Shown one piece after another: positions 1,163 through 20,800 of a stretch of 42,876 bases of DNA. The position numbers and the translations under genes are program-made. Numbering within the stretch: position 1 is the stretch's first letter; each line of letters starts with the position of its first letter. The DNA comes from a virus, in the IMG/VR virus record IMGVR_UViG_3300025120_000140, positions 1-42,876 of that record; one strand, 5' to 3'. The notes below the pieces were generated by a model. The model was not told the origin of the DNA and made no database searches. It was given only the letters and a program-made list of their open reading frames with translations.

Positions 1163-1194
1163 TTTGGCTATGTCTAATTAATGTCTTATCTTTG
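1163..1194 (+). promoter_or_regulatory. Bacteroidota-type promoter upstream of the GAT-GGCT gene
   Basis: TTTG at 1163-1166, a 20-bp spacer, then TATCTTTG at 1187-1194. This fits the Bacteroidota -33/-7 consensus (TTTG, TAnnTTTG). The spacer is also nearly identical to that of the promoter at 3914-3945 (28 of 34 bases match from the base before TTTG to the base after TTTG). Expected transcript start is near 1200, about 50 bases before ATG 1250. Confidence 0.75.
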
Positions 1195-1249: not shown

Positions 1250-1603
1250 ATGTGTATAATAATTGTAAAGTCGAAAGACAAAAAAGTCTCGCAGTCAGTA
1301 TTACGAGCATCATCATTAATAAACCCTCACGGACTAGGTGTAATATGGCTAGACACTAACGAGGTTAACTATCACAAATCAAAAGAATGGTCGGTACTAG
1401 ACACAGACAGACCCTACATCGCTCATTTCAGATATGCTACTAAAGGTAAGATTAACAGAGAGAACACCCATCCATTTGAATGCGGTAATAACTCTAATGA
1501 ACTACTAATGCATAATGGAACTTTGCTAGGCTATGGCTCAAAAGATTTATGTGATAGTAAGCAACTAGCTAATGAACTAGGACACAGACCACGACACCAA
1601 TGA
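1250..1603 (+). CDS. Class II glutamine amidotransferase domain (N-terminal part of a TGA-split GAT-GGCT fusion)
   Basis: The protein starts M-C-I-I-I-V, which places Cys2 as the N-terminal nucleophile of an Ntn-type glutaminase after Met removal. Further family signatures visible are HGLGV, the AHFRYATKG block followed by NTHPF, the LMHNGTL oxyanion block and DSKQLA. Such domains hydrolyse glutamine and hand ammonia to a synthetase or ligase, here most simply the neighbouring amidoligase. The open segment is 117 codons, shorter than a full domain. After TGA 1601-1603 the same frame continues without another stop (REILGQHDSRFV and on) into the cyclotransferase. That continuation looks like the missing end of the GAT fold, so the TGA seems to interrupt one longer gene. 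Promoter at 1163-1194. Confidence 0.8.
   Translation: MCIIIVKSKDKKVSQSVLRASSLINPHGLGVIWLDTNEVNYHKSKEWSVLDTDRPYIAHFRYATKGKINRENTHPFECGNNSNELLMHNGTLLGYGSKDLCDSKQLANELGHRPRHQ
1601..1603 (+). other. In-frame TGA splitting the GAT-GGCT reading frame
   Basis: Translation in the frame of ATG 1250 reads on from 1604 to 2335 with no further stop, giving a 362-codon frame with this TGA at codon 118. The flanking residues read RHQ-stop-REILGQ. The segment 1604-1726 has no ATG in this frame. The TGA could be a point mutation, a sequencing error or a recoded codon; sequence alone cannot decide. Confidence 0.75.
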
Positions 1604-1726: not shown

Positions 1727-2335
1727 GTGTTACAAGACAATCTTGTAGCGGTGTATGGTACTCTTAAAAAAGGTTACTCAAACAATAGTATGTTAAGCGG
1801 CTCACGATACGTAGGTAAGGGAACTACTCTTGATAAATACCCTTTAGAAGTTAGCGGTCTTCCTTATCTACACGATGTAAAAGGTAGCGGTTACAATGTC
1901 GATGTACATATATATAAAGTAAGCGACAACGTACTTAAAAATCTTGATTCACTTGAAGGACACCCTTATCATTACAAACGTAGTGAGATAATGATAAAGC
2001 GCAAGAAAGGTCAGATTAAATGTTGGGTATACTTTATACAGACAAGACCCTATTCAAACCATATGAACTGCATACAAAGTTATAAGCAAGAGAGACCAAG
2101 CACGAACTATAGAGGCTCCTCTTATCCTTATAATTTCTTTCGTAACGAAGACTATAAACCAAGCTATACTAAACGTATAACTGATTTTTATTCTTCTGTA
2201 GAGACAGACCAAGAAGAAAGATATTGCAGCACTTGTATGGTAGAGGTCAAAACAGATGACCACGAGATTAGTGATTCGAAATACTATTGTGAGATTTGTT
2301 GCAACCATTTCACAGAAAGCGAAGTAATGAAATAA
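1727..2335 (+). CDS. Gamma-glutamylcyclotransferase (AIG2-like) with C-terminal zinc ribbon; second part of the split GAT-GGCT gene
   Basis: VAVYGTLKKGYSN is the signature phosphate-binding-like loop of the GGCT/AIG2 fold. SLEGHPYHYKR carries the conserved acidic residue (E of LEG) used in cyclisation, and GQIKCWVYF is the last core strand. The family releases 5-oxoproline from gamma-glutamyl amines, or edits such amides. About 60 residues after the core, YCSTC and YCEIC form a CxxC-x19-CxxC zinc ribbon. GTG 1727 is the only usable start in this segment; more likely the domain is translated as part of the frame that starts at 1250. It is the last gene before the hammerhead ribozyme at 2386-2436. 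Confidence 0.8.
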   Translation: MLQDNLVAVYGTLKKGYSNNSMLSGSRYVGKGTTLDKYPLEVSGLPYLHDVKGSGYNVDVHIYKVSDNVLKNLDSLEGHPYHYKRSEIMIKRKKGQIKCWVYFIQTRPYSNHMNCIQSYKQERPSTNYRGSSYPYNFFRNEDYKPSYTKRITDFYSSVETDQEERYCSTCMVEVKTDDHEISDSKYYCEICCNHFTESEVMK

Positions 2336-2356
2336 TTGACTAAACGTTACTTTGTG

Positions 2357-2384
2357 GGGGAAGTTTATTGACATTTTCTTCCCC
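2357..2384 (+). other. Stable hairpin directly upstream of the hammerhead
   Basis: GGGGAAG (2357-2363) and CTTCCCC (2378-2384) form a perfect 7-bp stem with a 14-base loop. It lacks a T-run, so it is not a standard terminator. After ribozyme cleavage it would be the last hairpin of the upstream mRNA and could protect that 3' end (inference). Confidence 0.55.
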
Positions 2385-2385
2385 T

Positions 2386-2436
2386 TCTGTTCGGTAGTGT
2401 GTACTACCGCTGATGATTCGAAAACGATGAAACAGA
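2386..2436 (+). ncRNA. Hammerhead ribozyme, type III (predicted self-cleaving RNA)
   Basis: All core elements are in order. Stem III TCTGT (2386-2390) pairs with ACAGA (2432-2436), 5 bp. Cleavage triplet GTT ends at T2391. Stem I CGGTAG (2392-2397) pairs with CTACCG (2404-2409), 6 bp, loop TGTGTA. Core CTGATGA occupies 2410-2416. Stem II TTCG/CGAT with loop AAAA follows, 3 bp plus a T-T mismatch at the core-proximal pair that is usually G-C. GAA 2429-2431 completes the core. Because stem III is open, this is type III. Predicted cleavage is between 2391 and 2392. It lies in a 125-base gap, 24 bases before ATG 2461, so it would separate the GAT-GGCT message from the small-gene message. Confidence 0.75.
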
Positions 2437-2460: not shown

Positions 2461-2595
2461 ATGAATAACTTAGATAAATTAAAACTACAAATTGAAATCT
2501 CTAAAAAAGAATTAGACAATAATTTCAGCGAAAAACAATTTGACCACTTACTTAAATTACAATTACACTTACTTAAATTACAATTAAATAAATAA
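2461..2595 (+). CDS. 44-residue protein with duplicated leucine-rich heptad
   Basis: MNNLDKLKLQ start, preceded by AAAAACA, the same start context used by several neighbours. The C-terminus contains HLLKLQL twice in tandem, caused by a 21-bp DNA duplication (2546-2566 and 2567-2587). The heptads suggest an amphipathic helix or short coiled coil. First gene after the hammerhead. I do not recognise a family. Confidence 0.55.
   Translation: MNNLDKLKLQIEISKKELDNNFSEKQFDHLLKLQLHLLKLQLNK
2546..2586 (+). repeat. 21-bp tandem duplication inside the 44-residue gene
   Basis: ACTTACTTAAATTACAATTA at 2546-2565 recurs exactly at 2567-2586, a period of 21 bp, so the reading frame is kept. Confidence 0.8.
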
Positions 2596-3913: not shown

Positions 3914-3945
3914 TTTGGAGATGTCTAAATAATGTTGTACCTTTG
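3914..3945 (+). promoter_or_regulatory. Bacteroidota-type promoter, extended motif shared with 1163-1194
   Basis: TTTG 3914-3917, spacer, TACCTTTG 3938-3945. The spacer repeats TGTCTAA-n-TAATGT seen in the promoter at 1163-1194. Conservation inside a spacer suggests an additional protein contact. Drives the block from 3969. Confidence 0.75.
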
Positions 3946-10853: not shown

Positions 10854-11111
10854 ATGAAAAAAACTCCAGAAGAAATCTTTGACATAGCTATAAAAAATTC
10901 TTATATGGTGTTGTTTGAAGAGGCTGATGAGGAAGAAATAATGAAATCAAAAGAATATTATTTTGCTCACAACCCTTTTTCTCCTTACTCAAAAAAATTA
11001 ATACAAACAATGCTAGAACACTTCATTGCTTTAGAAGATTATGAAAAGTGTTCAATTTTAAAACAAGAACTATCAGAATGGAATTTAGACAATATCAGAA
11101 GGAGATTATAG
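10854..11111 (+). CDS. Small acidic protein with a UVR-like C-terminus (85 aa)
   Basis: Starts one base after the primase-helicase stop. Acidic helical N-terminus. Residues about 62-78 (FIALEDYEKCSILKQEL) resemble the UVR helical-hairpin motif of UvrB/UvrC and ClpC-type proteins (A-x-x-x-[DE]-[YF]-E-x-A-x-x-L-[KR]-x-[EQ]), which mediates protein-protein contact. Possibly an accessory to the neighbouring helicases. The motif match is short, so this is tentative. Confidence 0.55.
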   Translation: MKKTPEEIFDIAIKNSYMVLFEEADEEEIMKSKEYYFAHNPFSPYSKKLIQTMLEHFIALEDYEKCSILKQELSEWNLDNIRRRL

Positions 11112-17800: not shown

Positions 17801-20800
17801 ATAACACTATCTTTTATTCTTAAGTTTTGAGCATCAACTTCTGCAACTACTTTTTCAACTTGAGCTAAATAATTTCTTTTATTTACATCAGCAATAGTTT
17901 TATTTAATCTATTCATTACACTACGAGGCACCATCAAACCTTTTGGAAAGTTTAATCTAATAAAGTCTTTTAAATCTTTCTTTACTTTCTGTATGTCTCT
18001 TTCAGTTTTTCTACGCAATTGTATTCTGCTACGCAGCTCTCTTATTTGTTTTTGAATATTTCTATCTGCAGTAATACCAACTACTCTGTCGAACTCAACC
18101 ATCAATTCATCTTGTATTTCTTTTGGCTGAGAAGCAAAGATTGGATTAGTTTCTAATTGTTTTTTAGCAAAAGCTCTTACTTCAGCAGGTGTTTTTGCGG
18201 CTGCTAAAACTTTTTTATTTACTGGATATTTATTAAGGATTTGTTGAGTGGTTAATCCTTTAGTAGCTTTTGGAAATCTTTTTTTAATTCTTTCTACGTG
18301 CTGTTTTTTTATTTGAGTTGTTGTTCCTTTACCTAAAAAGTCAACTACTTTTCTGTATGCTTCAGTAAACAATGCGTTTCCTAAGTTAGCTCCTCCTTGT
18401 AAATTTCTAAAGGCAGGTGGCATCTCTTGCCCTTCAATAAGCTCCATCGCTAAAGCATCTTGAATCTGGTCAGTACTAAACTGGTTTCGACCTTTCAACA
18501 CCTCTTTTATTTGAACGTCTGTTATTCCTTTCTCTCTAGATTCTTTAACAATAACCTCTATATCTGTACCCTGTGGTACTTCAGCTTTTTGCTGTGACAA
18601 AGACGGTAATCTCATCTGTCCTCCTTCTTCAACTTCAACACCTACATTAGGGTCCACAGCTTGCCCTCCTAATAATTCACGCATAGTCATATTAACAAAG
18701 TCTTCTAGCGACATACCTCTGATATCTTGAGCAAAAGTTTTACTCGCAAATAAATCTTTTAATTTTAAGAACTGTTTTCTTACAAAGTTCATTAATAAAT
18801 CAAACCATTTAGCTAATCCGCTTTTTGCTGCTTTTCCTTCTTGCGCTTGTCCTGCTCTTCTTTTACCTTCTTGTGCTATATATTCTACTAAAGCTTCCTC
18901 TCTTGCCTTATTGCCTTCACCATATATTTTTACTTGTTTGTCATATTCTTTTTGTCCTTCTTGAGTAGAGGTAATAAGTTGAAGACCTCTTTTGTAAAGC
19001 TTAGAACCTTTTTCTCCAGACCTTTTGCTTTTTAAATAATCAATAAACATATGTCCAAACTCGTGTAATGGTAACGATAATGTTTTATCATCTGGATTTA
19101 AATATATACTTCCATCACCTTTTGCACCATAAGCTATATAGCCATCTTTAGTAAGTCTTTTTACTATACCTGGTTTGTTTATGTTTTCTTCAAAAGCTTC
19201 TACACTATCAAATACTTTAACCCCAGGGAACGCTTTGCTTAATAAATCAATTAGTTCTTTTCTGGTTTCTGGAGAAGCTTCAGCTTCTTGTCGAGCTTCT
19301 CTTTTTAATTTTTCTCCTTTAAATAAATCTAGTTTTCTTTTACCACCTTCTTGTGCAATATGGTATCCAGTTATTTTCCCTGTTACTTCATCATTATTAG
19401 TTATTAAATCATATCCAAAAGTTTGTAATCCTTTTTTCAATGGACTTATATTTGAAATTGTATTAGGGAAAAATCCAGTTTCAGTGTCATAACCATAGTC
19501 TAGTAATAAGTTTTTTAAAGGTATACGTCTTTGACTTAAACTTACATCAGAACCTCCTTTTCTATCTCGTTTTACTTCAGACCATTCTTGTCTAGCCCAA
19601 TCTGGAATTGCAGATGTAGCGGTAACATTTTCATTTAACGCTCCTTCGTCTACTAAAACAATAGTACCATCAGCTCTTTGACCCCAGTTTCGTGCAGCTT
19701 TAAAATCATTCCACAATAAATCATAGTTTAAAAAGTCTGTTAATCCTAACTCTTCCATTGTTTCAGTTAATTCAACAGGTCTATTTCTAATATTAAAATC
19801 CCTAGCATCATATTTTTGTAAAGGTTTTAAAAACTCTCTTACTGCTTTATCGTTACGTGGAACTTTTTCTACTACAATATAATCTGTTCCCACCTCATAA
19901 ATGTTTGGAACTAATCCTCCGAGCATACGCAAGTCTCCATATCCAATTGATGCGTTTTGTTGTAGACCTCTAGGGTTTTTAGCAATTTTAATTACCCTGT
20001 CATTACCTATGTCATACACATCTCTTGTTGTACCACCAGGAATTCTTTTATCTTTTATTGCGCTTAGAGGAACTTTACTAAAAGCTACAACATCGGTGTT
20101 ACTTGTTTTGTCATTGGTAAAAAGTTCGCTTATATTTTGTTGGCTTAATTGAACATCTGGTGATGCTGCTACTCTTGTTACACCCCCTCCTTGTTGTTTA
20201 GCCTCTCTTTTAGCTTCAGCTATATCTTCTTTGTAAGAAGCAATTTCAGATTTAGCGTCTTCTCTTAAGTCAATTTTTTCATCTTTAGTAAGACCAGGCG
20301 TTTTTAAATCTTGTTTGAGTTGTTCTTTTGTAGATAAAATTTCATTATTTAAATCTTCTAGTGTTGCTTCTAAATCTTCATTAACACTATCTGTCGTTTC
20401 AACTTCAACTTCTTCAACAACATCTTCTCCTGCGTCTACTGCATTAAGATTACCTCCTTCGTTTACGGCTTGTTGCAATGCATTTATAGGTCTGCCAAAT
20501 AAATTTATAGATAATTCATTTACTTCAGTTAATGTTTCAGAGTCTACCTTTTTATTTACTGCTAACGAATTCAATGCACTTTTAATTTGGCTTAATTCTG
20601 TTCCAAATATACTTTTAGAAGCAGGTGTTTTAGATAATTGGTTTTGAAGGCTTAACAACTCCATCATTGTTGTTTGTATCGGAACATTATCCGATTTAGT
20701 AACCTGGTCTGGAGACATTAACATTAAATTTTTTGCTTCTCGTTTGTTTCCTATATTAACTTGTATGTTTTCTACAGTCTCCATTGGTAACAGTTTTAAT

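Follow-up and report, generated by a model that had tools for sequence, protein, structure and literature searches.

What is the short element that fills the gap at positions 2386-2436 of this viral DNA, and what would it do to the transcript that carries it? The window, that is the whole stretch of 42,876 nucleotides analysed here, is an IMG/VR record of 42.9 kb that may be a fragment. A sequence-only reading had placed in this gap a type III hammerhead ribozyme with a full core, between an amidotransferase gene and small early genes, and had proposed that it forms an RNA-processing unit with a hairpin on its 5' side. The features of the locus are the following.

1164-1194, plus strand: promoter-like element of the Bacteroidetes type (TTG...TAnnTTTG), the nearest such match 5' of the ribozyme
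1250-1603, plus strand: class-II glutamine amidotransferase-like gene (PF13230, E 1.3e-6)
1727-2335, plus strand: gamma-glutamyl cyclotransferase gene (GGACT/AIG2-like; PF06094, E 1.4e-19; phrog_2520), directly upstream of the ribozyme
2356-2385, plus strand: GC-rich hairpin with arms 2356-2363 and 2378-2385, 8 bp including a terminal G-U, and a loop of 14 nt
2386-2436, plus strand: complete type III hammerhead ribozyme, 51 nt, supported by covariation and by a covariance model from which the window was left out
2386-2390, plus strand: 5' strand of stem III (TCTGT), 5 bp with 2432-2436; U2390 is U16.1, and the U16.1-A15.1 pair is included
2391-2392, plus strand: predicted cleavage point GUU^C, 3' of U17 (2391) and 5' of C1.1 (2392), placed from the core position
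2392-2409, plus strand: stem-loop I, 7 bp between 2392-2398 (CGGTAGT) and 2403-2409 (ACTACCG), loop GUGU
2410-2416, plus strand: core CUGAUGA
2417-2428, plus strand: stem-loop II, with the U10.1-U11.1 mismatch (2417/2428), 3 bp between 2418-2420 (TCG) and 2425-2427 (CGA), loop AAAA
2429-2436, plus strand: core GAA (2429-2431) and 3' strand of stem III (2432-2436, ACAGA; A15.1 is 2432)
2461-2595, plus strand: small ORF of 44 aa, its ATG 24 nt past the ribozyme
3915-3945, plus strand: second copy of the promoter-like element, 3' of the ribozyme

Inspection of the 51 nucleotides confirms every core element of the hammerhead class at the positions first proposed: C3-U4-G5-A6-N7-G8-A9, G12-A13-A14, the A15.1-U16.1 pair, and a residue 17 that is not G (U2391). 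The minimum-energy structure obtained with RNAfold is the described hammerhead plus one extra pair, U17-A14. Stem III is open while stems I and II are closed by loops, which is the type III topology. Of the stem lengths originally given (5, 6 and 3 bp), those of stems III and II stand, and stem I has 7 bp, not 6. The T-T mismatch reported beside the core is present (U2417/U2428): at the base of stem II, the window copy has U-U instead of the consensus G-C, a tolerated natural variant. The GC-rich hairpin likewise exists and meets stem III without a gap, with limits at 2356-2385 rather than 2357-2384. The adjacent upstream gene is the cyclotransferase and not the amidotransferase, which lies one gene further up; a small ORF does follow downstream. 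A coding function for the ribozyme stretch was rejected, as it lies between ORFs and the overlapping minus-strand ORFs look spurious. Scanning the window record with the family model described below identifies one hammerhead copy only, and a second, weak match at 10905-10950 (12 bits) was discarded because its stems I and II are unpaired.

Pairing is maintained in close relatives, the check that had been suggested for this locus. Six viral contigs (L122-L127), whose cyclotransferase is 97% identical to that of the window, carry the ribozyme letter for letter and keep the 5' hairpin. In a more distant relative (L128, 81%), the sole ribozyme change turns an A-U pair of stem I into G-U, so that the pair is kept, and both arms of the hairpin are altered with pairing intact. 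The 44-aa ORF is absent from the six contigs, where a different small gene starts at the same 24 nt spacing, and yet another gene lies downstream in L128. Inside this 44-aa ORF, which is missing from close relatives, there is a perfect tandem 21-nt duplication (CACTTACTTAAATTACAATTA, twice) at 2545-2586.

To place the element in a family, IMG/VR was searched with a pattern in which the core and a few loop letters were fixed and pairing was not required. It matches at least 120 places, whereas a control pattern with a scrambled core has no match in 2.9 million viral contigs; counts from the family scans refer to the matches listed, and the loci share ancestry. The full sets of stem I (6/6) and stem II (3/3) pairs form in all 105 distinct sequences among the matches listed, compared to just 6.8 of 105 for stem I when partners are shuffled. 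The covariation score of 48 selected sequences reaches 0.92 and does not exceed 0.11 once partners are slid; since these sequences were selected partly for pairing, the 105-sequence count is the cleaner test. The window scores 70.3 bits (E about 1e-22, a rough value given the approximate calibration of the family models) with a covariance model built from 25 sequences, the window left out. The letters C-U-G-A-N-G-A are invariant in the family alignment, having been fixed by the search pattern, and the loops UGUGU(A/G) and (A/G)AAA, where a type III hammerhead would form the tertiary loop I-loop II contact for activity at low Mg2+, recur also in matches from a pattern with free loop letters. 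The feature is real, and family covariation strongly supports, on sequence grounds, the type III hammerhead first proposed, a design shared by related viruses and by small bacteria in their hundreds.

The surroundings of the family bear on its role. Among the matches listed, same-strand genes, as delimited with a simple ORF caller, flank 113 of the 138 intergenic viral copies, the remainder being 15 divergent leaders, 9 converging ends and 1 antisense copy. The next same-strand start codon follows the listed copies at a median of 22.5 nt (quartiles 18-29), and the upstream stop codon precedes them by 31-61 nt (quartiles). As this stop codon is at most 60 nt away in 79 of 108 listed copies and the gap is largely occupied by the hairpin, little room is left for a promoter, and the ribozyme must mostly be co-transcribed with the upstream gene.

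The hairpin itself is a recurrent component. For 109 distinct intergenic copies among the matches listed, the 50 nt on the 5' side of the ribozyme fold with a mean z of -3.6, compared to -0.5 downstream, and the mean upstream MFE at listed ribozymes is -17.5 kcal/mol, compared to an average of -8.4 kcal/mol for gene ends elsewhere on these contigs. In 34% of the listed copies, against 0.8% of shuffled sequences, a perfect stem of 9 bp or more stops no more than 2 nt from stem III. Since only 1 of 122 abutting hairpins among the matches listed is followed by TTTTT, this class does not consist of ordinary terminators, and the plain intrinsic terminator reading was rejected for it; TTTTT follows 7 of the 51 listed hairpins placed 3-15 nt from the ribozyme. 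The window hairpin lacks the U-run of an intrinsic terminator; its tail, TTCTGTT, belongs to stem III and to the predicted site of cleavage.

We consider it probable that this recurring phage cassette, in which a strong hairpin and a hammerhead precede the start codon by about 20 nt, cuts polycistronic mRNA and leaves hairpin-protected ends. The promoter-like elements at 1164-1194 and 3915-3945 are near-identical 31-mers of the form TTGGnnATGTCTAAnTAATGTnnTAnCTTTG, of which none is expected in shuffled sequences, and are candidate phage promoters. An early transcript would probably begin near 1195, cover both the amidotransferase and the cyclotransferase and continue into the small genes. On emerging from transcription, the ribozyme would cut 3' of U2391, giving an upstream mRNA whose last 6 nt follow the hairpin and carry a 2',3'-cyclic phosphate, and a downstream mRNA that starts with a 5'-OH flush on stem-loop I. 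Both hairpin ends should resist exonucleases, so that neighbouring cistrons could be kept and decay separately. The RNA-processing unit proposed at the outset is thus supported in its anatomy, by the recurrent abutting hairpin, the same-strand genes, the fixed start-codon distance and the little promoter room, and from this anatomy we infer the cutting and the protection. A counterpoint is the short stem III; U-U at 10.1/11.1 together with a 3-bp stem II could also make cleavage slow.

Two systems invite comparison. In T7 early mRNA, RNase III cuts between cistrons and leaves hairpin-ended mRNAs, an analogous outcome reached by a protein enzyme rather than by a self-cutting RNA, and not a relative. 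The RiboJ insulator of synthetic biology, which combines the sTRSV hammerhead with a hairpin in the 5' UTR for a uniform 5' end, also sets a hammerhead beside a hairpin, but it is artificial and its hairpin lies downstream, whereas that of the window cassette lies upstream.

Precedents are found in prophages and haloviruses. Perreault et al. 2011 (PMC3088659) describe prophage hammerhead clusters in Clostridium scindens, Azorhizobium caulinodans and Agrobacterium tumefaciens where, as in the window family, several hammerheads surround single genes or short blocks in phage-like regions. According to this study, tandem phage and prophage hammerheads cut polycistronic RNA in vitro, one array doing so also in E. 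coli, and the role proposed for the clusters is to divide long phage transcripts into mRNAs the length of an operon or a gene. Compared to the clusters as presented there, the window family differs by its uniform 51-nt type III design, its marine phages, U-U at 10.1/11.1, the strong 5' hairpin and the fixed start spacing. For haloviruses HF1/HF2, the same source maps an early mRNA 5' end to a hammerhead located 13 nt ahead of the start codon (PMC3088659). Like the window copy, this HHphage element lies just 5' of a start codon in a polycistronic transcript; unlike the window family, it belongs to archaeal viruses, has a core insertion and comes with no hairpin unit in the portion of PMC3088659 considered. 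By analogy, the mapped HF1/HF2 end and the cleavage of prophage arrays in vitro and in E. coli make activity at the present locus likely.

The HF1/HF2 case (PMC3088659) is equally a precedent for a ribozyme whose main task would be 5' leader maturation for the downstream gene, much as in RiboJ: it would strip upstream RNA and the 5' triphosphate to give a uniform leader and an open start region, the upstream gene being incidental. The tight distance to the start codon, compared to the wider one to the upstream stop codon among the matches listed, also speaks for it, as do copies without a same-strand upstream gene, such as those of the elemo phages. Leader copies that follow an opposite-strand gene (the 15 of 138 among the matches listed, and the elemo phages by annotation) fit 5'-end maturation better than intergenic cutting. 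However, leader maturation does not need a strong 5' hairpin, which suggests that the upstream fragment has a function as well, and most copies lie between co-directional genes; as the main function it appears rather unlikely.

The cutting of polycistronic mRNA between genes remains the preferred reading, and the U-U mismatch has to be considered with it. Against the Rfam model RF00008 (Hammerhead_3), the window scores 17.4 bits for a gathering threshold of 48.5, so that the gathering-score match suggested as a check was not obtained. At this threshold, Rfam has no match in the window or in seven copy-rich loci; the RF00008 match is visible with a 71-base query, and a permissive 401-base search returned chance families only. 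L049:592-646, a family member with G-C at 10.1/11.1, aligns with RF00008 end to end at 47.6 bits, and the Rfam miss therefore reflects the Rfam model; as no checked copy reaches the threshold, annotation misses the family. The satellite RNA and viroid model shares topology and core with the phage family, while the window copy, below its curated score, differs by its short loops, 4-nt loop II and U-U. The family belongs to the type III hammerheads already known; its loops are short, and the window shares U-U at 10.1/11.1 with about half of the even viral sample (47 of 95 among the matches listed). Contrary to what had been supposed, the mismatch is hence not unusual, the more so since natural U-U hammerheads were already reported in 2011, with U-U the most active mispair at 10.1/11.1 (PMC3088659). 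G-C siblings are present in the same family and in the same genomes as U-U copies.

The state at 10.1/11.1 is coupled to residue 17: among the matches listed, A17 accompanies U-U in 118 of 140 copies and C17 or U17 accompanies G-C in 158 of 187, and nine A-A copies have U17 (seven) or C17 (two). Of 16 mixed-state phage loci among the matches listed, 12 open with a G-C copy, read in the direction of transcription, and 11 close with a U-U copy, an order that we treat as a lead, the loci being non-independent, partly retrieved by a U-U pattern and with positions that may be orthologous. Both associations would suit a regulated switch, in which U-U and non-GUC sites make cleavage slow or conditional (on temperature, Mg2+, or a phage or host factor) and the ribozyme acts as a timer or sensor, and regulated cleavage is proposed for slower phage variants in PMC3088659. 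The loops are short and uniform, without an aptamer-like insertion, and the association of states is perhaps just inherited by position, which makes such a switch improbable. A degenerate, inactive relic, to which the score below the Rfam threshold and the mismatched stem II base could point, is very unlikely in view of the six identical relatives, the L128 change that still pairs as G-U, the strong covariation with an intact core, and the activity of U-U, the highest among mispairs at this position (PMC3088659).

Intergenic cutting, as preferred here, is also supported by loci with multiple same-strand copies a few kb apart at most. All 38 IMG/VR records selected for having a match contain one to five copies on a single strand per record, and in 48 of 50 multi-copy loci among the matches listed all copies share a strand, with a median spacing of 1.1 kb. 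That successive copies (two to five on the same strand, 0.1-4.6 kb apart, at many of the listed loci) release transcripts one gene in length, which become circles or serve as small RNAs of their own, is hardly likely at all, given the single copy in the window record and a 2011 search for spliced or circular products that found none (PMC3088659).

A broader proposal is tentative: the cassette may be an RNA-based system dedicated to mRNA segmentation in a sizeable marine phage group and in related Patescibacteria elements, each genome having several copies with cutting rates tuned through the coupled 10.1/11.1 and residue 17, early copies being canonical and later ones U-U. The function of phage hammerheads has been a question since 2011, and the family offers a uniform cassette with a clear mechanistic prediction, namely a hairpin 3' end, a 5'-OH hairpin 5' end and about 20 nt to the start codon. 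The natural series of U-U, A-A and G-C copies and the related copy in the cultured elemoE/F phages make function directly testable.

Phage hammerhead clusters have been known since 2011; the wide spread in Patescibacteria is unexpected. Bacterial genomes often carry this design too (GTDB genome contigs L244-L361), most of those listed being Patescibacteria (Saccharibacteria, Parcubacteria and others), and complete stem I is found in 121 of 127 distinct pattern matches from bacterial genomes among the matches listed. One Saccharibacteria genome holds nine copies, and the hairpin beside stem III is enriched in bacterial-genome copies too. The PMC literature, where most subscription papers and preprints are absent, yielded no paper joining hammerhead, ribozyme and Candidate Phyla Radiation, and nothing on this hammerhead family.

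The genes upstream of the ribozyme, for 60 copies among the matches listed, include the phrog_1297 ATPase (10), cyclotransferase (8), HNH endonuclease (8) and amidotransferase (6). Together with a weak amidoligase match at 18-815 of the window, these neighbours suggest a possible link to a peptide-modification operon. The assignment of the phage host to Bacteroidota rests on the nearest named phages and the promoter-like motifs. BLAST of the window region against named phages gave no match, and neither did that of L049. The nearest named phage, MW202828, has no hammerhead copy and just 36 nt from its cyclotransferase to the next gene; the hairpin-ribozyme unit is thus dispensable at the cyclotransferase site. 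Of six other named phages found by a primase search, elemoE alone carries a copy, with none in Panino, Leef_1, Larrie, P12024L and phi46:1. A related hammerhead lies on the minus strand in cultured Flavobacterium phages, at 17867-17919 in elemoF (L243, MT497071) and at 18099-18151 in NC_055854. That of elemoF is located 15 nt 5' of the gene that opens the leftward operon, and some 180 nt upstream there is a TATATTTG box.
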